Program-made: the position numbers and the translations under genes
The notes under the pieces: generated by a model
What the model saw: the letters and a program-made list of their open reading frames with translations, nothing else
The model's database searches: none
Told to the model about the DNA's origin: nothing
Part shown: positions 31,915-64,000 of the stretch, one piece after another
Numbering within the stretch: position 1 is the stretch's first letter
Layout of the letters: each line of letters begins with the position of its first letter
NCBI GenBank assembly: GCA_037576195.1
Contig: CM075101.1
Coordinates: 28,086,001-28,150,000 of the forward strand
Direction: 5' to 3'
DNA: 64,000 bases
Source of the DNA: Phytoseiulus persimilis
Lineage: Eukaryota > Arthropoda > Arachnida > Mesostigmata > Phytoseiidae

Positions 31915-33740
31915 TTCGCATGTACAGTACCTCGCCTGTACTCGCTGACGCGATGTACGAAACGAAGGTTCTATTCCTGACTTAGAATAACTGGCCATTT
32001 TCGGCCGCTCGAATCGCCGGGAGCCAAACGAAAAAGCACCGAAACGAACGATCGAACTCCGAACACACAACATATGAACTCTTAGGTATGAATCACAGGA
32101 ATAACTCGATCGTTGAAGGTATAGCGGCCGTCAGATGTACGTTGACGCTTGTCCACCGAGTGCTCCGCAAGTCTGGCCTATCGAAGGATGAGTTTCGTTC
32201 GCAGATCGAGAGTGGCCGTTCTGGTCGATGCTCGTCTCGAACCCCGCATCGAGAGGGATACCGAATTCTTCGGTTAGTATACCATGGATCAATGGCAGTC
32301 TGAGATTTGGTCAGAGAAACGACCCAATCACAACTGCGGAGATCGAGAACGGATCGAGAGAATAGAGAGATCCTTCCCATTCAAATCGGCAACTTTTTCG
32401 TCTCGCGCCGCTGACTAAGATGAACACCGGGTGATCCGAGCCATTCTAGTTCCGGAATTCGGGAACTGTGATTTGCGGAACGTGACTTCAAAAGGAATTG
32501 TTCGCGAGTTAAGAACTTGAAAAGCCATCTGTCGCCCTCGAAAGTGTCCTAACGTTGTTTTCGAGGAGTCGGTACGAGCGCGACGTTGATGGCGAAGGGA
32601 AAAAAGACTCAAGTCAGGACGGAGGTGATCCAGAACCTTTCTGTTTCCGATCAAAAAACTCGAGAGTGACACTTGCCAACCGATTAAACCCTCTCAGCAA
32701 AGTCATAGTGGATATCCATATTGAAGGCGTGTGTTTTTTCCAAAGGAGCCCGAGGCGAACCCGAACTCAGCGGGAGCCGTGTTTCCTGAAACCGCGGGAC
32801 TAGTTGGCGTTCGAATACACGCGAAGCCGGGGGCCAAGCGTTCAGCTATCACGGGTGATTTCCTGTGAATCTATCCCCAGCCTCAGGGTATCTCTAACCG
32901 ATCAGCGTGTGCGAGAATGTGTTTTCGTTGTGATAAGATGGATGTCACTGCGTGGACTCCGAAGACTATCCAGCCGAACCACTGCAAATCTCGAGCCGCT
33001 CACTGGAGGAGATATCGTGTACTCAGGAGGTCAATCTCTCCTTGGACGGCTGTGCGCGCGAAAGCAATCTGGGAAGGAGTCTCTCCCACATTCGTCTCGA
33101 GCTCGGGCTCGTTGCGGACAAAGGCGATTCACTGCAGTGAACTAACACTCATGTTCTTTGCAGATGTTGCCGGAGAGGCTGTCGACATTTAAATAAGAGC
33201 TCCTCCGGTCGACGGCGAAGCTGATACGGAGCGTGTGAAATACCTTTCGGAAGCCTTGGAACTACGAAAAAGTGACGTTTCACTGGGCAAAGGTAGCGGA
33301 TCAAGAGAGTAAATAGTACTCTTCGAAATGAGAGTGACATGTGAGGAACTTCATCGGGAACTCTCCAATCTCATCGGGAGCTGATTTCCGCTGTTTACTG
33401 CACAAGAGAAGCATTCCCTGTCTTAAAATTCTCCCGAGCGTGCAGAAATTCTGTGCTTTTGAACTCCAGAAGAATCACCACAAAGTTCAGCTCAGTACGG
33501 TTCCACAAGTGACGGCTAGTTCGTCATGTATTGTCAACTGCGGGAATGAATTCTTCATGAGCCGTTGGAAGCCGTCCCGATCATTTTGACTTTTTTTCCT
33601 GGGTTGCATTCTACGGGGGTACTCCCTCGTGCTCACAAGGCCAACAGATTTCTCAACTGTTGCATGGTATCATCAGGACTGGTCACGGTGTGACCTTTGG
33701 TGCGCGAATCCTCGAAAATCTCGTGGTCGTTGCCTCCGGG
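31915..33740. repeat. Right copy of the direct duplication
   Basis: Matches 22055-23650. It carries 82 bases absent from the left copy (31967-32048) and about 165 extra bases in the second intron of the C15orf40 relic (about 32.88-33.03 kb). Its right end is continuous with the complete PMM2 gene, so this is probably the original locus and the 22-kb segment the transplanted copy. Confidence 0.85.
32589..33384 (+). pseudogene. C15orf40-like pseudogene (UPF0235)
   Basis: Second copy of the three-exon gene at 22.7 kb. Exon 1 (ATG at 32589) and exon 2 (GLVGVRIHAKPGAK preserved) are nearly intact. In exon 3 the frame hits a stop straight after GEAVDI, and another follows GSRE. Intron 2 has grown by about 165 bases. 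The exon 3 residues past the stop remain alignable, which points to recent loss. It is convergent with PMM2, about 250 bases from the PMM2 stop. Confidence 0.88.
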
Positions 33741-34552
33741 ATACGTTTTGTCGCCGAAGAAGTGGATCTCATCATACCCATCTTGTTCCACGAATTTCAG
33801 GCAGTACCGTTTGTCCCAGCCTGGGAAGGAATTATTCTCTGTCTCAACAGATTCAGCCCTTGGGGATGTAGAAAGATTCAGACCAGGCTGCCAGACTTTG
33901 ACGGAATCCAGAGAGGGGAACTCACCCTGAGGATAAATGTCGAATGAGATCTGACCTCCGATAGCGAAGCTCAGACCGCAATCTCCGAACTCCTCTTCAA
34001 GCGCTCGGATCATGGTTTCCCTGACGCTGTGCTCCTCGTCGTATTTTTCAAACTCATCTCTTTCCGCCTGCGAGCAGTTCCGCCCGATCGGGCTGACATT
34101 CACCATACCTTGCCGGAACTCTATGAAAGTCCCTCGTTTCTTCGGAAGTTTGAGATCCGCTATATACCTGCAATCCGGAACCCGGGTTTGAAACTTGACC
34201 ACATATTCACATAGACTGCGCCAGCATTCGATGTGGAAACGGGCGCTCACTTGAGACAAAAGTTGACCAGTTTCTGAAGTCTTTGTTCTCCAATGAATTC
34301 GAGGAAGCTTTGATTGTGTATTGGTTGCCCCTTCCTGTGAGCCACCAACCCATTCTGAGAGAACACGTAATCAAACTTGTGTATGCAGTCCTCTCCCACC
34401 TGCTCCTGGATTTTCGCAAGATCCGAGCCACCCACGAGGCCAACAGCGACCCTCTCGTGAACGGTTCCCAAGAACGCAGTGAATTCAGGGGTTATCGGAT
34501 TTCTGGGTTTCGTAAGAGTCCCGTCGACATCGAAGAGTATGATGGTCTTCAT
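33633..34552 (-). CDS. PMM2: Phosphomannomutase 2
   Basis: Interconverts mannose-6-phosphate and mannose-1-phosphate in the cytosol, supplying GDP-mannose for N-glycosylation and GPI anchors. Three exons: 34552-34251, 34167-33926 and 33820-33633, with introns of 84 and 105 bases and matching phases, give 243 residues (human PMM2 has 246). The HAD nucleophile motif FDVDGTLT is at residues 7-14, with [32 protein letters not shown] (here AIGGQISFD) and FFGDKT..GGNDHEI all visible. The start at 34552 follows a possible acceptor (TTACAG); another in-frame ATG lies 27 bases upstream. Its last exon was partly copied to 23.6 kb. It is convergent with the C15orf40 relic. Confidence 0.95.
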
Positions 34553-37118: not shown

Positions 37119-38279
37119 TTTTTTTTTTGTTTATAAAGGAGAGAGGAATGCCTGTCGCACGCGCCAGGAATCTTGGCGCATTCCTGGCCAGTGAGGGGCT
37201 TGCACCCTCTGAAACTCTCTCCTCTGCTTTCGGGTGCCTGGGGACTCAGAGAGGTTTCTCCATGTGGTATTACCCTAAAATCCCGCAGATAAAGAACTTA
37301 TCAGATAACGAACTTTTTGCATAACGAACTTGACAGATAACGAACTTGGCCTGGATCTGATAAGTTCGTTTTCTGCCAAGTTCGTTATCTGGAAAGTTCG
37401 TTATCTGATACGGTTCTCTAGAAAAACGTCGGAAGAAAAAGGTTCGTTATCTGCGGGATTTTAGGGTACTTCCAGGACACTCGGGGCCAGCGATCTTCGG
37501 GACTATTGTACTCTAGCTACGTCCTTTGCTCTGCTCAACTTCCTGGTCATCCTCTTATTTTGTTCACCAGGCTCTCTTGTAGGCTGTTCCGCTCGCGGTC
37601 CTTGCCGCGGGAACAGCTCGCCAACTCTGGCGATTCCTTTGTAGGCTATCTTTCTTCCGGAATATGCATTCGACCTTTCTCGTCGTTCTTTTCCATCCTT
37701 CTTCAGATTTCCACATGTGTTCCACTAATTGCGGTACCGATTTAGCTCCAAGGCAAATCGGTTGACTTAGTGCAGCACACGTGACCACCGCGTGATGGGT
37801 ATCATCTTCGTCGCCAGAGCCGCAGAGTGTGCACAGAGCCTTCCTCATCCTGAACAGGTATTGCTGGAAGTTTCCATGATTCGTCAGCATCTGCGTATGG
37901 TAAGTGAGGTCTCCGAAGTCTCTTCCCACCCAGGTCTTGATATTCGGTATGCTCGCATACGTCCATCGTCCTTTTGTGGATGAGTCCCATTGCGCCTGCC
38001 AACCGTTGAGGGTTTCAGTCTCGATCTCATTTCTGTCTGGGTCGTCTTCTTCGGATTCCTCGGCTGTATCTTCGTTGTACCTCGTGTATAGTGCAGTCCT
38101 TTCCTTGACCAGGAGCGGCCATGGCACTGTTCTGGCGAGCGCGAATAGGGCCTGCGTCGAGGTCGTGCGATAGGCTCGCGTTATTCGAACGGCAGAAATT
38201 CTCTGCGCTCTCTCCAGAGCCTCCCTATTCTTCTGCAAATGGAGCGCCTGAGGTCCCCATATCGGTGCTGCGTATGGTG
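37119..38279 (-). mobile_element. 5'-truncated LINE (R1/Jockey-like), ORF2 end and 3' region
   Basis: Minus-strand non-LTR fragment. The frame from 38279 to 37564 encodes the end of ORF2: APYAAPIWGPQAL, then the helical region after the reverse transcriptase, then a zinc-binding motif CTLCGSGDEDDTHHAVVTC typical of R1/LOA/Jockey ORF2 C-termini. The 3' region follows (37563-37129) and closes with a poly(A) tail, seen as T10 at 37119-37128. It sits inside the 45-base satellite. A second copy of its 3' region lies at 39.9 kb, and a MITE has inserted into this copy. Confidence 0.8.
37273..37466. mobile_element. 194-base MITE inserted in the LINE 3' region
   Basis: Begins CCCTAAAATCCCGCAGATAA and ends with the inverted complement (GCGGGATTTTAGGG). 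TA lies on each side. The homologous LINE tail at 39.9 kb keeps the uninterrupted site (reading GGTATTACTTCC), proving insertion at TA with TA duplication. The interior holds about eight copies, in both orientations, of a TAACGAACTT-like motif, so it can fold into nested hairpins. Tc1/mariner-type non-autonomous element is the likely class. Confidence 0.93.
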
Positions 38280-38294
38280 CAGTTTCCGAGTCTT

Positions 38295-38543
38295 TGTTTT
38301 CCGGCTGAACCTCTCAGTCAGCCCTCAGAAGTGTCCTGGGATCACCTTTCGGTATTGCTTCAGTAACACTCCCTATCGCCTCGCGAATCCCATTGCGGGC
38401 GGTGGGCTTAGGTCTTAATTCTGATACACATTAAATCCTCTTTTTACCACATAAGAAATTTTTGTTGTCGGCCGGGGATCGAACCCGCGATTGCTAGCTT
38501 AGCGTGGCACCTAAGGCGTTGGTTCATGCAACACGGTCAACGA
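38295..38543 (-). mobile_element. tRNA-derived SINE, full length, 15-base target duplications
   Basis: Minus strand. The 5' head (38543 to about 38465) is tRNA-like, with a canonical B box GGGTTCGATCCCC. A body follows, and the 3' end reads GGTTCAGCCGGAAAACAAA. It is flanked by perfect 15-base direct repeats GCAGTTTCCGAGTCT (38280-38294 and 38544-38558), the mark of LINE-mediated insertion. The target was the 45-base satellite. It is not a functional tRNA: the acceptor arm pairs poorly and it is fused to the body. Confidence 0.88.
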
Positions 38544-43987: not shown

Positions 43988-46900
43988 TCAATCATTCCAC
44001 ACGATAATTCCTTTCTCGGCCAGAAGCTCTCCGTAGTGCATCGACGCGCCTTCGGTGATTTCAAATAACTCTATCTCGTAAGGATTCTGTTCTTTTTGTT
44101 GTTCGTACACTTTGATAATGATCATGTCACGTCTCAAGACTTCGTACATCTCCAAGTCGTCGCCCGGCCGCTTCCGGAAGACGGTGTCTGAAAATTCAGA
44201 ATGATTGACTATAAGGATGGAATGGAAACGCGGTTTCGACTCGAAGAACGGAGGTGATGCCAACAACCTTGGATATGACAGCGGATCGCTTGCTGTGGGA
44301 GCAGGAGATCTTTCTCGAGAGGATACAGGTTGTCCAGATTGGTCGTAATGGTCGCTCCGTGGTCGACCAAGAAGACGTGGCACCTACAAGCAACACGGAT
44401 TCGTCATGAGTTAGATATCGCCTCGATTCGAGCAAGTGCACCATAAACGAAGATCTGACGCGCCTAAAAAGGTTAGACTCCGCTTGAAACCGGTCTAACT
44501 CACTTTTTCTCTACGCGTTTCAAGATTTTCGCTCTGTACCAGCCTTGCCGAACATTGAGCAGCGGCCCGCTATCCGATTTATCGACAAAAACCACCCCTA
44601 GTTGCTCGCTGTGGTGGATAGGGTTCGGCTTTTTCTTCCTCAAAGGATCATACAGCCTGGATAACTCGAGCATTATCTCGCGGAGCTCGAGCTTGAGTGT
44701 TGGTTTGCACTCGAGAACCTCCCAAATAGAGGAAACCCCATAGGGGAGAACCACATATAACATGCCATCCTCGTCGACGTGAGTACACAAGCCGAAGCCC
44801 GTACTGAAAAGTTAGAGAAATTTAACCCGATGCTGCGGCCCCGCTCCCTGGAGCTGATATCCTCTGCTACAAACACAATGGAGGGAATGTCTTTGGAGCT
44901 CACAAGCCATTCTGCAGGACGATATCGGGATAGTCGCGGAACTCGACGGAGGTCACTGCGTTTGTCATGGTTTTCTCAACGGATTCCCAGTGGGCGTGAG
45001 GGCACAATTCACCATCGGGACAAGCGCCGGTTTTCCGATATCTGAAACAGGTCGACAGGTTTTCAGAGGTTATGCTGATTCATGTCATCACTGCATTTCG
45101 CGGAGGAACGCAATTCGCGTGATTCACAGGCAGTGGGGAACCGCGGCTGGAGGCCGCAATCGGTGAGTTCCGGAGTTTCAAGGCCAAACGGGAACATCCG
45201 GGAAGGTCTACATGGGAACCTAACTTTGATGATCAACACAGAATGTCTAACAGCGCGGAACATTATTGGACGTGTCAGGAAGTGACTTATCTAACGGTGT
45301 AGGTGATTTTCCTGACTCCGTGCTTGGGTCGCTGAGAAGAACAGCCAGAGAAGGAGGAAGAGTCAGGACTAGGAGATCCACGAAAGAATTCGAACCCAGA
45401 ATGAGCGAAGCTCTGGCAGCACGGATTCGGGGGATTGAAAGTACCAAGGTTCTGAACCGTCAAGGAGAATCCCTCCCCGGTCACGAGCTTCCCGGTAGTT
45501 CAGCAGCAGACTCATGCTTTCCCTCCCGCCGCAGTCCATTCCGCTGCGGATTTCAATATTTGCTCCTCGATCCAGATCCAAGGACGGCTCCGCTTGAACT
45601 CAGCGTGCTCGCGGAGGGAGCAGGATGGTGTCTTCGCGCAACATACTTACTTCGCGCATATTTTTTCCCTATGCTGGTTACTTCTAGCAACCTTCTGAGC
45701 ATTTGCGATGCTTCGGGCGGTTGAAATTTCGCTTTGTTTTTCGCCTGGAGAGTGCGAGAATCCAGTTATCGAATGTGAGCGTGCACAAGGGTTATTCACC
45801 TTTCGACGCACCAACTTGAGGACGGCCGTCCTATATCATAAAAGAAGGGCGTGCCGCTGGGGGCGTTATGTTTTGAAAACCTCACCTTCGACGTCGAGTG
45901 GGACAGTCCCAGTGCGAGCGGTGTAGCGTATGTTCTCCTCGGCCTCCGTTACTGGCAAATCGTTCTCTTCACTACTCGAATCATCGTCGCTGTGTGTGAC
46001 TGCTGATCTCAATGCCCGATCGTCGACATTCGAGTGAGCGGAACTCGTGGATGGTGCGTTCACTGGATCACGACCTCCATCCAGCGCCGGTCTCTCTTTC
46101 GAGTCTCTCTTGGATCCGCCTGTCAGCTGCTCACCGACTCTATTGAACCAGTTTTCGTCCACCCTCAACAAATCTGTGACCGCTGGCCCTTCTTGCGGCC
46201 GTTGCTCGTCTTGCATGCGTACAGCCTCGGCTTCGGGTTTAATGGCACTGGATTGGGGCGCCGCTCGGTTATCCGTCAGATTCGGCACCAGGGGCTGGGC
46301 CGTACGTCCTCTGTTCGAGTCGTTATCGCCGTCGGCGACCGATTCTCTACTCTCACGGCTGTTCACATCTGATCGAGTTTCGTCGATGGCGGTGGTTCGA
46401 GATGAGCCCGTGGAGACCTCGTCTCCGTCTGAAAGGCTGCAACCAATCATATAGCTCCTCCTACCGAACTTGGTGGAATTTCGCTGGAAACTGCTATGGT
46501 ATGGGAATTTCGTATGATTGACTGTGCTCACTTCAACAGGAGAAGCCGCTCGAGAGAAATCCATCCCTTGTGTCCGACTTCTACATGTGCCAAAGTTCCC
46601 GCAAGATGAGGCTTTTGTTTGCTGCTTCTATTCAAATCGTCATCGAATCTCAGGCGGAACCGAGCCTCCGGATAGTACTCAAGAAGTTCATGTATGACTC
46701 GCGGTGAGCTCTCGATTCCTTTCGGGAGAATCCGCAAACTCTGCGATGGGCCGGCGGCTAGGACTTCTTTCGGAATCTGTTGGACTGAAGGTGTTTAGAG
46801 GAGAGTTCCGTTGATAATTGACTTTGGAGGCTCGTAGGCAGCCGAAAACTAACGAGCAGATATCTCGACGAGGCACGTACCGGGAATATTTGCTTCACGT

Positions 46901-47702
46901 CGACCACGACTCTGTGACCACTGTCGACGAGAGAGACTTCTGCTCCGGAGCATTCGTGGCATGCGCTGCTGCTAGATTACGAGAAGAGTTTTCAGGATAA
47001 GGCAGCTGTGCACAAAGATCGAGAAAACTTTCCTTCTCTGCTCCGTGGAAATCGGTCGAAGATTCGATTCCGCACATCATGACAGCAGTCCACGGTGACA
47101 TCTCAGATATGACCGGTCAGTCGTGAGGAAAGGTCCGCGCTATAAGACAAACTCACTAAAATTTCTCCAAAACTTGTGCGCGGTGCCAGCGTCCACCTCG
47201 TTTCACCATAGCCCAGGTGGTGGGTTCTTCGGCGTATTCATCGTCTTTGAACCGCTGGCCGAATTCTTGTACTTTGATATCCACGTTTCGCGTGGTGATC
47301 CGGTCATAGCAAACGTACAACGAGAACGGGTTGAGATCATACGTTGTGATTTGTGACCGCTCGAGCTCCAAATCCTTGGGAAACTGTGTCAGAGCAGGCA
47401 AATGGAGTCCACCGGGAGCCTGTGAACAAGGTTACATATGATCGAAGACGTGAATTGACTGCTTTCCGATTGGACTGAAACGCCTGAAAAGCTTTTGAAA
47501 GACCCCGACTTGTGGAGAGACTTCTGACAAACACTCTCACACGTGGCTACCGGCGTATACGCGGATCGAACTCCACTATTGAGGCCTTCTAGGGGACATC
47601 TAGACTTCGCGCGTGGTACGACACAGCGAACCGCGGGCACAGAACGCGAGCAATCAACAGGGGTTTTTCAGAGATTACTGAGGCACTCACGTTGACAGAC
47701 AT
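43988..47702 (-). CDS. Tudor-CCCH-Tudor protein, TDRD12/Yb-like without helicase
   Basis: Exons assembled with matching phases: 47702-47691 (MSVN), 47419-47157, 46971-46881, 46776-46532, 46436-45886, [one short exon not found], 45041-44904, 44803-44504, 44383-44268, 44187-43988. Domain order: first Tudor (WAMVKRGGRWHRAQVLE, then VSLVDSGHRVVVDVKQIFP across an intron), a Ser/Asp/Glu-rich linker of about 180 residues, a CCCH-type zinc finger (ACPDGELCPHAH), and a second Tudor (LGVVFVDKSD..GWYRAKIL, CHVFLVDHGATITTNLDNLY, LPQQAIRCHI), ending GIIVWND. A CCCH finger directly before the last Tudor is the layout of TDRD12 and fly Yb proteins, piRNA-pathway factors of germline or gonadal granules. Those carry a DEAD-type helicase between finger and first Tudor; here only about 850 unassigned bases remain, too little for one. 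The first zinc-binding Cys must lie on the missing exon (phase 1 in, 2 out). Tudor pocket aromatics are partly replaced (VDSG, VDHG), so methylarginine binding is uncertain. Confidence 0.75.
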
Positions 47703-48320: not shown

Positions 48321-51300
48321 ATGTCGGGAGGAAGTGAGACTGCTGAAAATGTAGCGGCGGCCAAGCCTCGCTCAGCTCTTGTCGAGATCCGAATGGTGAA
48401 CATCAATTTCCCATTTGAGCCGTACGAGTTGCAGAAGGACTACATGTCTGCAGTTTTGGAATGTTTACAAAAAGGTTGGAACGGGCTCCTGGAAAGTCCG
48501 ACGGGGACTGGTAAAACCTTGAGTCTCCTCTGTTCATCACTAGCGTGGCTGGAAGATCGGAAAGCTGCCATGCAGTTAAATTGTGAGTCTCGGTGTGTTG
48601 ACTTCATAGTTGCACTACACCGCTACAGAATATGATGAAGTGAAGCAGATGTTAGAAGATCGCCTTGGACTCGATACGAGAACGACTCACTCCTTCTTTG
48701 ACTCCGAAATTACAGATGCCGGCGGCTCGCTCCCACAATTGAAACCTGCTGAAACTCCAACGCAGACTTCCTCGTCATTCGATTTCTACCCCCAAGTTCT
48801 CTACTCGTCAAGAACTCATTCCCAGCTCTCCCAAGCCAGCCGTGAACTGAAGCGAACCAAATATGGATACATGAACAGCGTTGTACTCGGCTCGAGAGAC
48901 CAGCTCTGTATCAATCCCGAGGTGAACGGACTCCCAACATCAGCGCAAAAAATACGGAAATGTCAAATCCTCGTTAATTCGAGAGCCTGTGAATATCATC
49001 GGAACTACGAAACAAAAGTCAGTCATGAGGATTTCACCAATAATCACGTTGTGGACATTGAAGACCTCATTGCCCTGGGGAGAAAACATTGCTGTTGTCC
49101 CTATTACTCGACGAAGATACTCCGGAAGAAAAGTGATGTTGTTTTCGTACCCTACAACTATGTGGTCGACCCTTCTACGAGACGTGCGCAGGGCATTGGG
49201 CTCGAAAGGAACATTGTGATATTCGATGAGGCCCATAACATCGAATCATTCTGTGAGGATTCTCTCTCGTTTTCGATGACCTCCACTGATCTGGCGGGTG
49301 CAATGAAGGAGATCGACGCGGTGGCTCAAACATTGGCGGATTCGGAAGAGGCAGATAACATGGAATTCAACGTGGCTGAGCTGTCGGTGCTGAAATCAAT
49401 GCTCGGCGAGCTGGAAACTCGATTCGATCAAGCCGCTGAATCCGACAAACACTACGACGGTGACTTCATCGTCCAAATGCTACAAGCCTCAGAAATCGAT
49501 TCACAACACGAGCGGATCACAGGTTTGCTGGACTCGTTGCTGAAATACATTCAAAGCATTTCTTCTCAGGGTCCTTGGGGACCGAAAGGCATTGGTCTTC
49601 AGAAAGTTCTGGACATGCTTTCTACTGTTTACTCTGGAGGCACTCCCCAAGACCTTCGCGAGAGCTTCAAGCTGTACTTCGAGCATCCAAAAGAAGGCCC
49701 GAAGGAAGTTTTCGTTGTGGAGCGCAAGAAGAAGAAATGGGAACTTCACTTCGTATGCCTGGCCCCAGGCGTTCGAATGAAATCTATCGTGCAGGCTGGA
49801 GTGCATTCCGTGATTCTCACCAGTGGAACCCTTTCTCCGATGGGAACTTTGGCCACAGAACTCGGCATTCCCTTCCAAATTCAGCTCTGCAATGACCACA
49901 TTATAACGCCGGACAAGATCCAAGTGCTATGTGTTCCGAAGGGACCCGACAATGTCGAGCTCATTTCAACCTATCAGAACCGCTCGAGTGAAAAGTACAT
50001 TCGAAGCCTTGGTCTCACCTTGAACGAAATGTCCCGCCGAGTTCCGCACGGAGTTCTCGTGTTCTTCCCGTCATTCGCTTGCATGAAAGCGCTCGTGGAG
50101 AAATGGGAGGAATTCGGGATCATGCGGAGGTTGAAAGCCAACAAAATGATACTCCAGGAAACATCAGGGTCTTCGTCTTTCAACTCGACGATCCAGTGCT
50201 ATAGAGATGCCGTGGTCAATAACGCTCAGGGCGCCATGTTGTTCGCCGTTTGTCGCGGCAAGAGCTCTGAAGGTGTGGACTTCTCGGACGAATTCGCGCG
50301 AGCAGTTGTCATCGTGGGTATCCCGTACGCACCGCGACAGGACAATCGCGTCAAACTCAAAATTGACTATCTGAATAAATATGGATCCGACGGTATGAAC
50401 GGCAACACCTGGTATCAAATCCAAGCCATACGAGCCATCAATCAGGCCATCGGGCGCGTCATCCGACATCGTAATGACTTCGGTGTGATATTATTCCTCG
50501 ACAAACGCTTCGCCGAGCAAGGGACCATCTCACAACTCTCTAAGTGGGTCAGAAATCGAGTTGACACACTCCGAGAGTTCAGGAAAGCCATCGTGAGCGT
50601 TTCGAGTTTCTTCCAAGCGCATAACGAATGCGTCTCCAGTAGAGTAACAAGTTTCTCTTCAGGAAACGCTGCTTTCGTCAACAGTTCACACAAGCTGCCG
50701 AATAATGGAAGCATCACCCAGACTGAACTGGGAACTCTGGTCGACATTGAGAAAGAACTGGAGAAGCAAAGCCAGAGGTTGGTTGAGATCTACAAAGCGG
50801 GAGGATCTGCCGAGAAGAGCGCAGAGATTCCGAGAGGCAAAAGTGTGCTAGAAGCCGTCGAGCGATTCTCGAGTCACTGTCAGAAGAATCCGCTAGAAAA
50901 CCTGCCGACTCTGTTCGAACTGAAGAAGCGGACAGCATCAGGAGCGGCGTTGAAGAAAGACGATCTCAAGAAAAGGAAACTGACCGTTCCGTTGCACGAT
51001 ATGATGGGTAATGAATCCGAAAAAGTCAGCTCGATTCCCAGCGCGACGCTTTCGAAGAATCCTGAAGACGGAAAGGCGTTGCTAGAAGGAGTCGCTCATT
51101 CTGGTGGAAGCACGCAAACTGGGCGAAGACAGGACACCAGGACAATATTGAAGAATGTCTTCGAGAAGGTCGAGAAGGCATGCGGCTCGCCAGAGCCGTG
51201 GCGTGAGCGCCTAATCGGTTTCATCAAAGCGTTGAAAGAGACCCGGAACTTCGAGAGTTTCGTCAAATCTCTGGCAGGAATGTTCCTCGAATCAAACGCC

Positions 51301-51807
51301 GAGATCACCGTAGACCTTCTTTCTTGTCTGGGTATGTTTGTTCCTGATAATCGATGTCGTTTCGGCATGGAGATTCTTGCGCTGGTCAAGCTCACCGACG
51401 ACGCTGTGCGGAGCTCAAATTTGAGGCGGCTCAGTGGCAACCTCACAGCGCTACCGCCGAAATTCGTCGTGTTTGTCATGCGGTGGTGCTTGGAACCATT
51501 GCCAGCGTTAGTTGAGTACTTTGAAAGATACCCACCTCCGAACATCGATTCCGAGACCTACCAAGCTTTATACGAGGAGAAGATCCCGACGCAGCGCGAG
51601 GCACTCGAGATCGTCAAATCAAAGTTGAACGCAGAGGAATGCAAGTTTTTCCTCACCGAAATGAAGAAGTTCACCGCTGGGAAACAGATAAGCGTTTTGA
51701 CCACCAACAGCATCTTCCGAGAAAAGTTCCGGCATATTCGAGAGGATATTGTGATTCTATTCAATATGAAATATTACGTAGATTTTTTGTTGGAAATGTG
51801 CCAATGA
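48321..51807 (+). CDS. RTEL1: RTEL1 DNA helicase
   Basis: Iron-sulphur superfamily 2 helicase (XPD/FANCJ group) that dismantles T-loops, D-loops and G-quadruplexes in the nucleus. Two exons, 48321-48582 and 48641-51807, give about 1142 residues (human isoform about 1219). Visible: [13 protein letters not shown] near the start, Walker [10 protein letters not shown], four Fe-S cysteines ([28 protein letters not shown]), DEAH in [31 protein letters not shown] and the arginine finger AIGRVIRHR. The C-terminus has one region like the harmonin-N-like domains (residues about 915-1000). A PCNA-binding QxxI/LxxFF box is not evident. The first AG in the intron (48627-48628) would create TAA at the junction; AG at 48639-48640 keeps the frame. 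ATG 48393 ([11 protein letters not shown]) is an alternative start. Confidence 0.95.
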
Positions 51808-52094: not shown

Positions 52095-52169
52095 ATGCGA
52101 GAAACCAAGGAGTCATTCTGAATTAGTTTATTCAGAGACTCTAGTTTTCTGGAACTAGCATCAATTAGC

Positions 52170-54640
52170 CCAAAGATAAGCCCTCAGTGTACGTCGGCGA
52201 TCTCAGATCCCCCGCCAACTGGGCTCCAGCCAGCGGCTCATGGTGCCCAGCCCCGACGTCGCGTTGCCCCGCTGGGCATCCAAGCAGGGGCGCTGAGCCA
52301 AGAAGCGCCCCAGTCTTTTGTCTCCCGTTGCCCGCTCGAGGGCCTCCCCAACCTGGGCCATCAGGGTCCTGGTGTGGGAGCCGGGACCACCCACAGTCCC
52401 GAATGCGAACGCCGAGAACTGTTACCCGCTTATCAACGCGGCATACTTGTCGATTTTCGCCGCCTACGCCCTCGCAACGGTGGACCCTGCGCGGGACGTA
52501 CCGTGACCGACCAGGGAAGGGCTCAGAGAGTCGGTCACCGTTGCATCCCACACGAGGGCCCCTCACCCTGGAGAAAGGAATGAGCGTGAGGCCGTCAGGC
52601 CGCCTTCCGTCGTCGGGCATGAGACCAGAGGGCTCCAGCATGCAGAATATCCCGGCTGAACGAAGAGCCCGTCCGAGGGTGTTGTTGAGAGCAGCGTGAC
52701 GCGGTCGACGACCAGCCGATAGGGCGCAAGACAGGCCGTGACGAGCGAGGCCACCGACAGGCTCCCCACATGCACTCCGATTCGGCTCAACCAGGTTAGC
52801 ACCCAATCGGAGTCCGACGCAAATCCTGACAGAACGGTCATCGAGCTCTGTACCCAGGCAGTCCGCTGGGATCGCGTGTAGCCGGTCACTAGCCTCCGGC
52901 CGGGAAACCGCCAGCGGCCGAGCTCGGTCCTGATTGTCTGAAGTGTCACCCAACAAGGACTCGTAGGAGATTTCGTACACCTTTTCCATCCAAGCCCGCT
53001 GCAAGTCCAGTTCGCCGGCCTCCGGCGCAAAGGCGGATAACTTCGCGGAGAGAGCATCCCGTTTTGCGATGAAGGATACCCAGGCCTCAGGGAGGAGAAG
53101 TTCTCTTACCGGGTCGGAAACACCGATCCTGGAGGAGACGGCGGCCGTACCCGCAAGACTTACCACGGATGTGAGCCCAAGGCCACCCTTCGAGGTTGGT
53201 AGATGAGCCTGAGAACGTTCCCGGGCCAGGAGCCGAAGGTTGAGCAGAGACTCGAGGGACTCAGTGAGCTGGTCATCCCATGGTTGCATCAAGCTGCCAA
53301 AGTCCGAACAATCTGTGCTCCTAATCAGATGCTGAATGCAACAGGCCGAGAAGGATGACCGGAGCAAGAAAAGGCCCTGGTGAGCGCCTACCAACAGGAG
53401 ACGCTCTCGCATAGCCCAGACTCTCTCCGTCAGCGTACTGAGAGACTCCGGCAGAGCGTCGGACAGTCGGCGCCGCGCAGGGGAGATTCAGGGAAGCCGC
53501 CGTGATCGAAACACAGCCGGGGAGGAGTTCCGTCAACTCTCGGAGAGAGGAGTTACCTTCCAATCCAGGTGCGAACAGTTCACACTTCGCCGGGTTCAAA
53601 TCAAGTCTGCTGATACCATGGAAGTCGAGGACGCACCGGGCGTCTCGGACTAGGGTCTCTATCGGTCCACCCAGGATCCCGTCGTCCAGGTACCACGCAT
53701 TGAAGGGTGCCTCGATGGAGTCGACCAGGTCCCGGATGCCGAGACTGAACAGCGCCGGTCTTAGAGGATCCCCTTGCTGAAAGCCAGTTGATGAAGAAAG
53801 GACATCAGATCCGAACAACAGCAAACTCGGGTTCTCGTACGACTGCTGAACGAGGTGGAAGAGGTCCGGAGCGACATCGCGCACAACTCGGAGAAGGTGA
53901 TCCCGACGAAGGCACTCGACAGCATCCATGAAGTCCAGCTTGAGGAATGCGGTACGGGGTGGACGAGAGACCACAGCTGCTCGAGACGCGTGGATCGCCG
54001 CTTCCGCTCCGCCGTTCCTTCCGAAACCCAGTTGAGACCAAGAGCCTCAACAATCTGGTCCTTACTGTCACGACCTGCGAGTTTGGCCGCGATCCTGCGA
54101 ATAGTGGACGAGCAGACGATAGGACGAACCGAAGAATCCTTCTTTCTTAACGCGAATAGCCTTGCACCAAACAAGATCGAGCGGATCTCCTCGGGCACGA
54201 TTCCCTGTCGGATGATGTCGCGTGCCTGAGATTGCGAATGTTGGAGAGGATTCTGGGGCGTGGTTGATGCGAGCCTATGGGATCTTGCTAGATGAATGGG
54301 CTGGCGAACGGATCTCCGGCTCAGACCCAAAGTTCTGACACGGCCAGAAAGAGGGCGGCGGCTTGACGACTTTGAGATGGCCGTGCGCTTAGCAACGTGA
54401 TCCACAGTCTTCTCAATTGTCGATGATTCCTGCGAGCAACGGAGGAGAGACTTGCGGGGAGCCGGAATCGGTTTGGAAGCAGGCAATAGCAGTTCGGCTG
54501 GTTGAGCGCCAGCTGCAGAGTCAGCCGGGATCACGATACGGCGACCGGCCGCTGCGTAAGAGCCCGGAGGAGACTCAGCCGGCAACGCCGACGTCGAAGG
54601 TGGGTCGCAAACCAGAGTTGCCGTAGGCACCGTGAGTCAT
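52170..54640 (-). mobile_element. Non-LTR-type retroelement with reverse transcriptase and RLE-like C-terminus
   Basis: About 2.4 kb on the minus strand. Reverse-transcriptase landmarks in order: FGARLFALRKKD..VRPIVC (54.2 kb), KLDFMDAVEC (motif A), TGFQQGDPLRPALFS (motif B), WYLDDGILGG (motif C, YLDD instead of YADD), and LNPAKCELFAP. A C-terminal region follows with ICVGLRLGANL, then a Cys/His stretch, then RRPDGLTLIPF and a nearby WDATVTD, consistent with the RPD...D core of a restriction-like endonuclease (R2/NeSL-type). A Ser/Arg/Pro-rich start is at about 54.6 kb. The copy spans several frames and is not functional. Target duplications were not found. Confidence 0.75.
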
Positions 54641-57237: not shown

Positions 57238-60030
57238 TTAACAGCGCTCGAAAACCTTATAGAGCTCTTCGGTTGAGGTCAATTTCACCATTATTTCATT
57301 GAATTTCGAAGACACCTTGATCTTCTTCCTAGCTGCTGGGAAAACTAAATCTTTCAGAGCAGCTTCATCACAACTATCTGCGTACATCTCCGATATAACT
57401 TGACAGATGCCGCGGAAACATTTCTTCTCCTCATCATATTCGACATCGGACGCCAGACGCAGCAAGAATATGGGAAGTGCGCCGACTCTAGGAACCAGGC
57501 CTTCGAGAACGATAGGTAGTCTGCGCAAGCCGTCTTCAGAGATCACAATCGAAAAGTAACACTTGAGCATTTCAGCCATGCTGAGCAGTTTTCTAGACGC
57601 ATGTTCGACTAGCTCCGCAGCAGTGCTCATTTCCGCATTGTATCCAGATCTCGCTGATGTCAGGGATATTTTCAACGCGTTCTCTAACCTCAGCGGGTTG
57701 AACTCGAATGCTGGAAAATTCGCGAAACGATCCAAGCAATTCTGATAGAAGAGGGCGGTTGCTAATCGGCGATGGTTGACCATGATGAGTTGAGTTCCGA
57801 TCTGCATCAAGGATCTATTTCCCCCGACCCAACCGACATAGATCATCTTCGAAAGGCTCCGACAGAGTTCAGTATCGGCCTCAGATGCCAGTTCTTCCTT
57901 GAGCTCCTCAATCTGCAAAGAGAAACAGCACAATTTGGAAATCTGGCTCCGTGACAAGATCACTCGAAACAGATGGATCAATGAAGAAATTCGGAGAAGA
58001 TAGGGAGAGTAAACGAACGCACGCTCGATAACAGGTTTTCAACCCTTTCGTTCGTGCTCCCAGCAGCTTCTCTTTGACAAAACAGCGTCGTGATTCGCTC
58101 CTGACTCGAGTCGTATCTCACAACTTCTTTGTCGCGCCTTTGCTCGTCGCTATGCTGAGACGTTGCTCCGGAGTCGCTGACCTTCGACGTGGAGATGGAC
58201 TGCTTCGTGAGGTAGTGTCTGCAGAAGGTATATCTCATGTTCTCAAGCTATCATCGGTCCTCAAGAATCAGGATTGGGAAAACCTCGATTCTTCTCGCAT
58301 CGATGATACGCTATGTACAATCACCTGGACGAGTCACATGAGAATAGCACTCTGTCAACCTCTTCTTGCAGCCTCGTGAGAACATATTCTTGGTGCAGGA
58401 AGCCGACTTCGCTTTTGGTCGGATGCAAGTTGACGTCGACGTTTTCTGACGGCATTTCTAGCGAGAGGTAGACGAATGGATGATCATCTTTGCGGAGGTA
58501 CCTCTGATAAACAACCTCCAAACATCCTCGAATGGGTGGGCACTCGACAAGCCTGTACGGAAATGAGAAAACGTACGGTGAAATCGTGAAAAACCGAATG
58601 ATGTCGTACAAAGTCCGTGGTTAGACGGGGCTCCCGCCACGTCGACTCCATGGCAATGGCGGAACCTCTTCCATAAAGAGTACTATGCAGATGGCCGTTA
58701 TGAATAAGCGTGACTTGAGGATATAGGGTTCTTTGAAAGAGATTCGAACCTGTTATTTATGAAGAGCACAAGCTGCGTCCTTCTCTTGTTACTGTAATTC
58801 GCCTTCGTGACGTATCCGCAGGCTCTGATAGAAAATCGCTGTTAGCGAATGGTATGGGAAGCTCTCACGTTCTCGAGGACAGCGAGCTGTAGATCACTTA
58901 CTTTATGCTTATCTTCTCGTCGACGAATTCCAAGCGTAGGAGTTCGCGAGCGATCTCTTGTCCGTACAGAGTTCGTATGTTGTCAAGCACCGCCGAGTTC
59001 TTCCGCGTATTCACTGCGAGGCTGTTCTCGCCTTTGGAGAAGTTGACACATGAGCTTGAGGGCCGATATGAGCTCCGGTCGAAAGTATCTCGGCTCAGTT
59101 CTTACGCCGCCGTTCCTCGGATTGAGCGTCGACAGTTAGAAACTTAGAGGAGAAGAGTCAATGCTGTTTACCCTGCTTGCTCAAAGCGAAACCGATGTGG
59201 GGGAAATGGACAGCGTAATTTGAAATCACGGCCTCACAGCGACGGAACTCGTCTGCAGGCGACCTGAAAGCCTCACGTCTCTGAGGAACATTGAAGAAGA
59301 GATCCTCAACAGTGATCGTTGTCCCACGATTCATCGCGACTGGTTTTGGATCATCCTGGAATCAGTGGCAATTTCAACAAGTACGTTCATGGGGATGGAT
59401 TTGAAGAGAATTCGAATGCGGTCGATACCCACCAACGGCTTCCCATCGCTGTAATGGCACACGTATCCGACAGTGGAGCGTTCGGTTTTCGTGGAAATCT
59501 TTACATGGGCAACGTAAGTAATCGAGGCCAACGCTTCTCCTCGGAACCCGAAAGTTGAGATTTTTTTCAAGTCGTCGAAACTGTTGATTTTCGATGTGGT
59601 GAATCGTTCACATACGATTGCCATGTCGTCCTTGGCTATTCCGCAGCCGTCATCCTGGAGGGTGTACACGCCGATACACGACATAAATAAGTGCTCGATA
59701 GTTGACCATGCGTTCGTACCGCCAACTTCTTCCCGACAAGCATCCAACCTGGATCTGAATGAGCTTGAGCCCACCGCTGTTGAGTGTTACGGCGATTTTC
59801 GTACTCCTTGCATCAATAGAATTCTCCAGCATTTCCTTGATCGCATTGCACGGCCTTTGGATGACCTCTCCCGCGGCGATCCTGAAACACAAGGATAATT
59901 TCCAACCTCGAAGTCGGGGGCGTTGCCAGCATTGAGTGGGAAACCGAGGAAGTTGTCACAGCACTGCTCTTATTCTTCAATACCTGTTCACGACGTCTTT
60001 CGGGAGAGCGTTTATCCGCCTGGGTTCCAT
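57238..60030 (-). CDS. MLH1: DNA mismatch repair protein MLH1
   Basis: MutL-family ATPase; partner of PMS2 and MLH3 in mismatch repair and meiotic crossover. Nine exons with consistent phases: 60030-59984, 59881-59749, 59654-59433, 59355-59172, 59031-58902, 58824-58750, 58552-58325, 58233-58023, 57912-57238, giving about 634 residues. The short first exon encodes [15 protein letters not shown] and joins [23 protein letters not shown] motifs: [10 protein letters not shown] (motif I), DDGCGI (II), [11 protein letters not shown] (III), [19 protein letters not shown] (IV region). The transducer has [17 protein letters not shown]. The linker is short ([14 protein letters not shown] matches the MLH1 VRTDSREQKLDAFL motif), so the protein is about 120 residues shorter than human (756). 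It ends in the invariant FERC, which completes the MutLalpha metal site. All introns are 78-197 bases. Confidence 0.96.
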
Positions 60031-61749: not shown

Positions 61750-63210
61750 GCCCGCCTCCTGAGGAAGTACGATGCTCATTGGATGGATGATGAACAAGAC
61801 TGTTAACGCAATTTATCGGGATTACATGGGAGCTTAATATTAGCGCGGTTACGACTTGTCGAGCGAAGTCCTCCCAGGAACCCACAGAATATCACATAGC
61901 CGAAATTCGCTGATCCCCGACGTATCAAGGAGTCGGCTCCGATGAGGACTCTAACTCCTGTATCCGCGCAGTTATTGGAGTAATCATGTTTGCTCGTTTC
62001 AAGGAGCTCTTCGCAATTCCCCGACGAGAAACTTACTTGCGAACTCGATAACCACTTGAAGGTGTGTTTGGTTCGTATCAGAAGTTGATTTGTTCCACGA
62101 TTCACGGTAATTTCCTATCACTCGAAGCTATGCCACAGGAGTGAGGATGGAACAGCGAGTGACCGTGCTGATTGTAAGCAGAGAAATACGGCTGGCGTCG
62201 CAGGGAGCTGATACTAAGAGAATTGCCGTCGTTCTGCTCATAATCCTCACTTCGCTCCGGGGCAGTTTGTCGGAGTTAGAACTGCCATTCGAGGACAGTG
62301 TTATTGGTTGATGGTGAGTATGGTGTGCCGTAGGTTCCTATGGCTTCTTGCAAAACGAGTTCGGTCTCTTAAATTTCGGTGGTTGAGATGGTGGGAGATC
62401 GGAAAAGCAGCCGATGTTTTGTGCGTTGGATATTCGGATTGTGGCGACCCTGTTAAACGCATCGGGAAGGGAAACCTCCACTGCAACCTGTGAGTACCAT
62501 GAGTTAATCAAGTGTTTTCACTTAAATTTATTTCGATCGTGCTCGTTGGTATGAAGTTTGTTATCACCCTGACGCATGTAGATGAATCATCGCGGGTACA
62601 TCGGTTTCAGAGTTATTTTCTCTCTACGATCTGTTGACCGAAACCCGGCTTTTCGTTATTTTCTCATAGCTGAGACAGTCAAACGTGTTCGAACTCTTCC
62701 CAGAAGTGCGTTTTGTCGAATACTCGACAGCTTTTGACTGAATTCCTGAATGATCGAGTATCACGAGACCAGTCCTCGCTCAATCTGAGTTCTCTCAGTC
62801 TACAACGTAGAACAACCAATATGTAGCAATATCCATTCCGATTCCTCTTCTCTGCTCCACGTATGGAGGAATATTCGTGACGTCGCTGTGAACTAGTCCA
62901 ATTTTTCTTTGATTTAGAGAGTTTCGTCCGAGAATGACGGACGATCGGTAGCTCGCATGGCGCTCGCTGGGTCGCGAAGCCGAACACATGGAATGCAGAA
63001 TGGTGTTTCGTGTCGGCTCAGGCAAGAGGACATGTACTCGACGTCGATCACAAACGAGTGGAACTGGTTGCTACGACGTAAAGGCCTGGCGTAGTAGTAG
63101 TTTCGGAGCGAATCAATGCAGTTTCAGCTGTACGACTTCCCCCCCCCCCCAATCCAGGCAGAATTTTAGGGAAAACAGTTGGATGTCGCGTTTTGAACGG
63201 CTTCTTGTTT
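61750..63210. other. No gene recognised; possible small exon
   Basis: An ATG frame at 62144-62308 encodes MEQRVTVLIVSREI and a hydrophobic VVLLIILTSL stretch; a strong GTGAGT donor lies close by but out of reach of that frame. A C10 run is at about 63.14 kb. No supported gene. Confidence 0.3.
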
Positions 63211-63214
63211 TCAG

Positions 63215-64000
63215 GGAAGGATGCAAGACTACGGCTCCGACAGCATTCATGTAGATCTGGGATGCCTGCGACGCTCACCGGCGGAGCATCTGCGCAGGAG
63301 ACTTGGCTCCGACCGCTTCCGATCGAATTATTACAAAGTCGGTCTGGCAGCACAACCCACCTATTTGAAAGACAAAAGTGAGAACATTCTCAAATGCTCC
63401 GAACACAAAGCCTCGTCCGATTGGCAGCGTCTGAGAAATGCGCTGATCGCACATCATCACAGCTTGCCCGAAACGGAAATTTTGAACCTAGTTCGAACTC
63501 TGCAAACCTTGTGTCAAGAAGCCCTCGGTGACGCTGAAGAGAGCATTTGTCACGCTGCAGGTCTTCAGCTGCTGTCGATCTTCACTGATCATCATTGCGA
63601 TTTCTTGCGGGAACAAGACGTCATTAAAGTGAAATGCGCTGTCGCGCCCATCCCTCGCGAGATTATCAGCAAAATCATGAACCACGTCTCACTCATGAAA
63701 GACACTCTTGGAGAGTATCTCACCACTGCGGTCAACGATATCGTTAACAACTCCAACGAAGTCAATGCTTTCGTGAGGGACACGACGAAGCTGAAGGTTC
63801 CAGTCATCCGAGATCCGAGCTGGGCCCGACGTGAGTTCCTCCTTATTGAGAGAACTCCCGTGGAGAGTACAAAGAGTCGTCTAGGCTTCAATGAGATCGT
63901 TCAACAGACTAACAGTCAATCGGGCAAGAAAGAAACTCCAGTCGAGGCATGCAACGCATCCTGGCTTGAACGGAGGGTCAGAGACTTCACGAAGAATATA
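63215..64000 (+). CDS. Unrecognised protein, 5' part, runs off the window
   Basis: After a good acceptor (TTGTTTTCAG) the frame GRM then MQDYGSDSIHVDLGCLRRS stays open for 260 codons to the window end. It contains HLRRRLGSDRFRSNYYKV, then a helical region (LRNALIAHHHSLPETEIL, LQLLSIFTDHHCDFLREQ), PSWARREFLLIERTPV and ASWLERRVRDF. The lack of stops, high content of charged helices and clean acceptor make it a real coding exon. I do not recognise the family. The ATG at 63221 may be the start or internal to a longer protein. Confidence 0.7.

Follow-up and report, generated by a model that had tools for sequence, protein, structure and literature searches.

Structure of the locus

A Tudor-CCCH-Tudor gene of the mite Phytoseiulus persimilis is located in a stretch of 64,000 nucleotides (assembly GCA_037576195.1, contig CM075101.1; C1:28086001-28150000), which is referred to as the window and provides all coordinates given without a contig. 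The gene runs from 47702 to 43988 on the minus strand and is composed of ten exons with 680 codons in a stop-free frame. All nine introns are of the GT-AG type and the exon phases are consistent; the G+C content of the window is about 51% and introns are small here. The predicted 680-residue product consists of a Tudor domain, a charged linker of 215 amino acids, a CCCH zinc finger and a second Tudor domain. Both this order and the extent of the gene agree with a first-pass annotation of the same DNA, which had, however, left out one exon (45744-45651) and had described as acidic a linker that is in fact of mixed charge (41 Asp/Glu and 27 Lys/Arg in 215 residues).

Exon 1 (47691..47702, minus strand, as are all others) carries the putative start codon and encodes only MSVN; its ATG leads to a GTGAGT donor that enters exon 2 in phase 0, and it is the weakest part of the model. 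The first Tudor domain, putatively an extended one, begins in exon 2 (47157..47419), has its core in exon 3 (46881..46971; AEVSLVDSG) and is completed in exon 4 (46532..46776). The linker, at the position held by the helicase in TDRD12, is encoded by exon 5 (45886..46436) and ends in exon 6 (45651..45744). The latter was added because the modelled exons 5 and 7 are out of phase without it; it is predicted from this bridging of phases and from its splice sites, a ctctccag acceptor and a gtaagt donor. Exon 7 (44904..45074) encodes the CCCH finger and the beginning of the second Tudor region, exon 8 (44504..44803; GWYRAKIL) the first part of the second putative extended Tudor domain, exon 9 (44268..44383; VFLVDHGAT) its core, which coincides with a genome-wide PF00567 match at C1:28130266-28130385, and exon 10 (43988..44187) its end and the TGA stop codon.

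Coding potential was assessed by codon preference, with six other long frames of the same genome as the training set. The chosen frame is the highest of the three same-strand frames in nine of the ten exons, exon 2 among them; the exception is exon 6. Exon 1 has only four codons, and in exon 4 the leading same-strand frame scores slightly negative and is surpassed by one antisense frame. In the nine introns all 27 frames score negative. When an early draft of the protein was searched against the whole genome (181 Mb in 127 contigs, four of them of chromosome size with 54.7, 52.0, 38.9 and 28.1 Mb), only its own exons were matched at E<=1, and the gene therefore looks single-copy. Taken by its sequence, it appears to be a real and intact gene.

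Domain composition

Both Tudor domains exceed the Pfam cut-off for TUDOR (23 bits). The first (amino acids 49-136) scores 30.0 bits (E 6e-7) and the second 49.1 bits (E 7.5e-13). The zinc finger between linker and second Tudor, CFRYRKTGACPDGELCPHAH (amino acids 428-447; 44990..45049, minus strand), has the spacing C-x8-C-x5-C-x3-H, exact for the CCCH type, and corresponds to a genome-wide PF00642 match at C1:28130990-28131049; with 20.1 bits in that search it was counted just over the cut-off (20.5 bits) together with its neighbours. No Pfam family matches the 215-residue linker at E<=10. Among the 35 TUDOR matches of the genome (E<=10), the window gene alone has a CCCH match within 25 kb. The rows used for such neighbour tests were 42 of 59 for CCCH, 39 of 40 for DEAD and 100 of 100 for Helicase_C, and the omitted rows belong to genes or a cluster already represented by the used ones.

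The closest solved structures of the second Tudor are TDRKH/TDRD2 (E 0.0075), SND1 (E 0.1) and 7cfd (E 0.67), an entry listed as FI20010p1 that we take to be the second Tudor of Krimper, whose tyrosine positions it shares. TDRKH has KH domains and SND1 has nuclease-like repeats, and neither has the layout of the mite gene. A search of solved structures with the whole protein returned a single weak and irrelevant match. The Tudor cores are matched by Pfam at both ends, and the flanking staphylococcal-nuclease-like part that would make them extended Tudors is putative. Vertebrate members of TDRD12/Yb carry a C-terminal CS domain; no match to it was found in the mite protein, which stops 66 amino acids past the Pfam Tudor stretch.

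Both Tudors, as aligned, lack most of the aromatic cage. The four cage positions are occupied by K, H, L and S in the first domain and by N, Y, L and H in the second; in either domain the first of these residues depends on how a loop is aligned. The first-pass annotation had noted that both domains vary at the aromatic position of VDYG, and this is confirmed: they have VDSG and VDHG, whereas eight of nine other Tudor units of the genome, picked by a Tudor-like motif, have an aromatic residue after the aspartate. In Krimper of Drosophila the second Tudor is described as canonical with four tyrosines, while the first has a non-canonical set (Asp, Thr, Leu, Phe) and binds unmethylated Ago3; the same account links a leucine in the cage of TDRD2 to a preference for unmethylated arginine (PMC8249470). 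With cages like those of the first Krimper Tudor and TDRD2, both mite Tudors may resemble readers of unmethylated arginine.

Absence of a helicase

The gene contains no helicase and has no room for one, as the first-pass annotation had stated. Its introns sum to 1,672 bp, and the longest, of 576 bp, is interrupted by 4, 8 and 10 stop codons in the three frames. A DEAD profile was built from three of the genome's own DEAD-box genes and tested on 5,736 six-frame open reading frames, taken from the window and from 20 further Tudor loci. It recovered the helicase of a human TDRD12 sequence at E 2.4e-26, which served as control, while its best match in the window has E 5.7. A hidden helicase exon was consequently rejected, since the introns have neither coding signal nor profile match.

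The sole credible match of the profile among the reading frames of the window and the 20 Tudor loci is the TDRD9-like locus L027 (E 3.4e-4). The next one, in L018 (E 0.79), was inspected and taken as chance. These loci span 9 to 9.5 kb each, so that a more distant helicase of the same gene would escape; they stem from a grouping into 23, in which the window gene is a further locus, C1:38765063 lies inside L018 and C3:23073099 (E 2) was left out. Pfam reported no helicase in ten frames from other Tudor loci. A test of proximity between Tudor and helicase matches gave one pair at 1.6 kb (C2:31218561 with Helicase_C, TDRD9/Spn-E-like by eye) and one at 15 kb (C1:44715092). For the window gene it gave helicase matches 20-24 kb away, in a long BRR2-like frame outside the window.

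Upstream of the gene, in divergent orientation, lies an RTEL1 gene (48321..51807, plus strand; start placed by eye, with a small intron near 48.6 kb) for which Pfam reports DEAD_2, Helicase_C_2 and ARCH_RTEL1 over 48610-51804. It was rejected as the missing helicase because it is of the XPD type and lies on the opposite strand, so that it cannot be spliced in cis into the Tudor gene. The two start codons are about 620 bp apart, too short a distance for a helicase. The DEAD profile does not detect RTEL1 and speaks of DEAD-box cores only.

Comparison with TDRD12/Yb and Krimper

Human TDRD12 has its first Tudor near the N-terminus and a CCCH-like motif ahead of its last Tudor. The mite gene shares with TDRD12/Yb, including BoYb and SoYb, a Tudor at each end and perhaps, as judged from the human sequence used for all TDRD12 comparisons, the position of the finger. 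It differs in that the DEAD helicase core of these proteins is absent and that its Tudors show no similarity above chance to the corresponding ones of the human protein. Pairwise similarity was expressed as z against 150 shuffles in a panel of 20 selected reading frames and four other sequences. The second Tudor scores highest with a fragment of TDRKH (z 12.0), followed by the SND1-like L016 (10.7), a 59-residue fragment of Krimper eTud2 (9.6) and L021 (9.4), the TDRKH and Krimper fragments being parts already matched in the structure search, a selection that raises their z; with the second Tudor of TDRD12 it scores 1.0. The first Tudor is closest to the second Tudor of its own protein (8.4), followed by the second Tudor of TDRD12 (5.8) and by L020 and L022 (4.9 each), and has z 0.5 with the first Tudor of TDRD12, a comparison with one distant species.

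Searched against the genome, human TDRD12 left the window gene unmatched at E<=10; it matched seven DEAD-type loci, four of them ordinary DEAD-box genes by eye, and a Tudor exon of L019. The separate helicase-bearing TDRD12 for which the first-pass annotation had suggested a search was not found elsewhere in the genome as a helicase-Tudor gene, a result that is not conclusive since 36 of 106 DEAD candidates were scored and a real TDRD12 could escape: even the human protein exceeds the threshold for DEAD only narrowly (29.2 bits against 26). Pfam reports no CCCH in human TDRD12 at E<=1, whereas the window gene has a finger, and one table lists TDRD12 with DEAD only and without CCCH (PMC12147562). 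The assignment to TDRD12/Yb made by the first-pass annotation is therefore not supported at the sequence level, because the helicase is absent and the pairwise scores show no preference for TDRD12.

Flies are already known to have a Tudor scaffold that lacks a helicase, and the layout of the mite gene is a variant of it. Krimper is given a single Tudor, a ZnF-CCCH and no helicase in one table (PMC12147562), extended Tudors at 272-512 (eTud1) and 562-746 (eTud2) after a self-interacting N-terminal region in a structural study (PMC8249470), and eTud only in another survey table (PMC12014135); 7cfd was equated with its second Tudor because the tyrosine positions agree with those in the structural study (PMC8249470). 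To speak of a new domain arrangement, as had been considered for the mite gene, is too strong in view of this precedent of Tudor and CCCH without helicase (PMC12147562, PMC8249470). Mite gene and Krimper have in common the lack of a helicase, the CCCH finger listed for Krimper, two Tudors, extended in Krimper and putatively so in the mite, and a first cage without aromatic residues. They differ in the self-interacting region before residue 272 of Krimper, where the first Tudor of the mite protein is near the N-terminus; in the second cage, which in Krimper is canonical with four tyrosines and binds dimethylarginine, whereas both mite cages are poor; and in the 215-residue linker that separates first Tudor and finger in the mite protein. 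The gene is assigned neither to TDRD12 nor to Krimper, in the latter case because the N-terminal region and the canonical second cage are missing.

TDRKH/TDRD2 and SND1 resemble the mite protein as the top structural matches of its second Tudor. Another comparable protein is Vreteno of Bombyx mori, described as a multi-Tudor scaffold with three extended Tudors, two of them without an intact cage; its long form carries an RRM domain, which the mite gene does not share, and the account of its domains mentions no CCCH finger (PMC10711660). Searches of the open-licence literature revealed no recognisable description of such a gene type in mites.

PIWI proteins in the genome

In four mesostigmatid mites, one or two Ago3 and no Aub/Piwi have been reported (PMC7659050). 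A genome search with PF02171 gave 19 matches in P. persimilis. Nine Piwi stretches were examined, with a neighbouring copy at C2:40467664 left out of this reading: four were compared with solved structures, where each agrees best with the AGO clade, and the other five are AGO-like by eye. A probable PIWI-clade gene lies at C4:17086200-17087800, and a closely similar copy at C3:9736800-9738400. The C4 locus was compared in two pieces; both match PIWIL1, PIWIL2, Piwi and Siwi, with lowest E values of 3.1e-6 and 1.4e-8. Neither piece matches a eukaryotic AGO chain at E<=1, and the archaeal HrAgo1 was matched at E 0.084 and 0.56. By eye and against PIWIL1, the translation has LSNQ where slicers have YRDG and YAER at the YAHK of PIWIL1, so that this PIWI-clade protein may have no catalytic residues and may not cut RNA. 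Upstream of the gene, a frame at base 1225 of C4:17082700-17086200 (L054) contains RRGLGRGRS, which resembles the arginine-glycine tail of PIWI proteins and is a candidate exon for such a tail.

Other sequences in and around the window

Reverse-transcriptase-like pieces of retroelements were recognised by eye at 52165-54636 and 37564-38313 (both minus strand), the former frame overlapping in part with a region of raised G+C (0.594 at 52-54 kb). Also by eye, 57238-58038 (minus) is MLH1-like, 33633-34370 (minus) phosphomannomutase-like, and 63197-64000 (plus) the start of a BRR2/SNRNP200-like frame that runs past the window toward two DEAD matches. Rfam and tRNA scans of the window gave no matches. 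Elsewhere in the genome, two similar Tudor genes (L019, C2:15177500-15187000; L030, C2:15203500-15213000) lie on opposite strands at a distance of about 29 kb; each has, by eye, a LOTUS-like stretch ahead of its Tudor, and they are possibly a local duplication.

Interpretation and significance

It seems modestly probable, by analogy with known Tudor proteins, that the gene product is a Tudor scaffold without helicase that belongs to the piRNA machinery of the germline. This is suggested by the open ten-exon model, its codon bias, two Tudors over the cut-off, the exact spacing of the finger, the structural matches of the second Tudor, the cage residues, the rich Tudor set of the genome, and the presence of a TDRD9/Spn-E-like gene (L027) and a PIWI-clade gene. 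The two putative extended Tudors with their poor cages would bind arginine-rich tails lacking dimethylation, or other Tudor partners, in the manner of the first Krimper Tudor and TDRD2. The finger would contact RNA or support the second Tudor, and the charged linker would let both ends move. In this way a PIWI-clade protein and partner Tudor proteins, possibly with RNA, could be held together in germ granules. The protein would thus act through binding alone and resemble Krimper in its kind of action, while TDRD12/Yb would do the same with a helicase core added.

Several observations weigh against such a scaffold. In the protein scan the finger scores 15.9 bits, below its Pfam cut-off, and the first Tudor has no relative among solved structures even at E<=10. 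The N-terminal self-association region of Krimper has no counterpart, the first Pfam Tudor starting at amino acid 49 behind a putative first exon. The germline function is proposed by analogy, and some Tudor proteins act elsewhere. Finally, the sole PIWI-clade type seen seems to be non-slicing, which makes a Krimper-style role in ping-pong unlikely; if it does not slice, the hand-over of cut RNA between two slicers by Krimper, which binds Ago3 and Aub, could not be copied as such.

A claim about descent that is compatible with a scaffold function, and rather unlikely in our view, is that the gene is a TDRD12/Yb gene after loss of its helicase, with the linker marking the former ATPase site. 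The remaining parts apparently stand in the same order as in human TDRD12, no TDRD12-like helicase-Tudor gene was seen elsewhere, L027 alone of the 20 other Tudor loci, each covered over 9 to 9.5 kb, matches the DEAD profile, and the first Tudor resembles the second Tudor of TDRD12. The pairs that should correspond, however, are those that show nothing (z 0.5 for the first Tudors, 1.0 for the second), human TDRD12 fails to match the gene, a real TDRD12 could have been missed among the candidates scored, and a CCCH finger is not tabulated for TDRD12 (PMC12147562). An extension of this idea, speculative and improbable, is that a lineage in which the only PIWI-clade type is catalytically dead also shed the TDRD12 helicase; the gene would then be the TDRD12 scaffold minus its ATPase core, licensing piRNA precursors by Tudor and zinc-finger binding alone.

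Equally doubtful is a true Krimper ortholog, from a family older than usually thought, that would bind PIWI proteins in opposite loading states. The shared composition and the poor first cage (PMC12147562, PMC8249470) are in line with it, as are the weak match of the second Tudor to 7cfd (E 0.67; z 9.6 with the pre-matched 59-residue fragment) and a mosquito Tudor protein termed a putative Krimper ortholog in a review (PMC9962485), through which the family may extend past Drosophila. TDRKH and SND1 match better, however, so the signal is generic, and the non-canonical second cage and the missing N-terminal region also argue against orthology. Moreover, an origin of Krimper by duplication in Drosophilidae has been proposed, with loss or divergence elsewhere also allowed (PMC6411831), and one survey table gives Krimper eTud only (PMC12014135). 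It is very improbable that two separate genes, or a decaying gene, were wrongly joined. Exons 1 and 6 depend on splice signals, exon 6 is not the top frame and exon 4 scores slightly negative, but the phases agree over ten exons without a stop, and the second Tudor (z 8.4) is more similar to the first than is any of the other 24 sequences in the panel.

The gene is of moderate interest, as a mite gene with two poor cages alongside a probably non-slicing PIWI protein. If transcripts and orthologs agree with the helicase-free model, either a Krimper-like Tudor scaffold without helicase would exist outside insects or the helicase of TDRD12 would be dispensable, and either outcome would inform the question of what purpose the ATPase serves in TDRD12/Yb. 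The gene would also offer a well-defined starting point for work on small-RNA silencing in an animal whose sole PIWI-clade type seen seems unable to slice.

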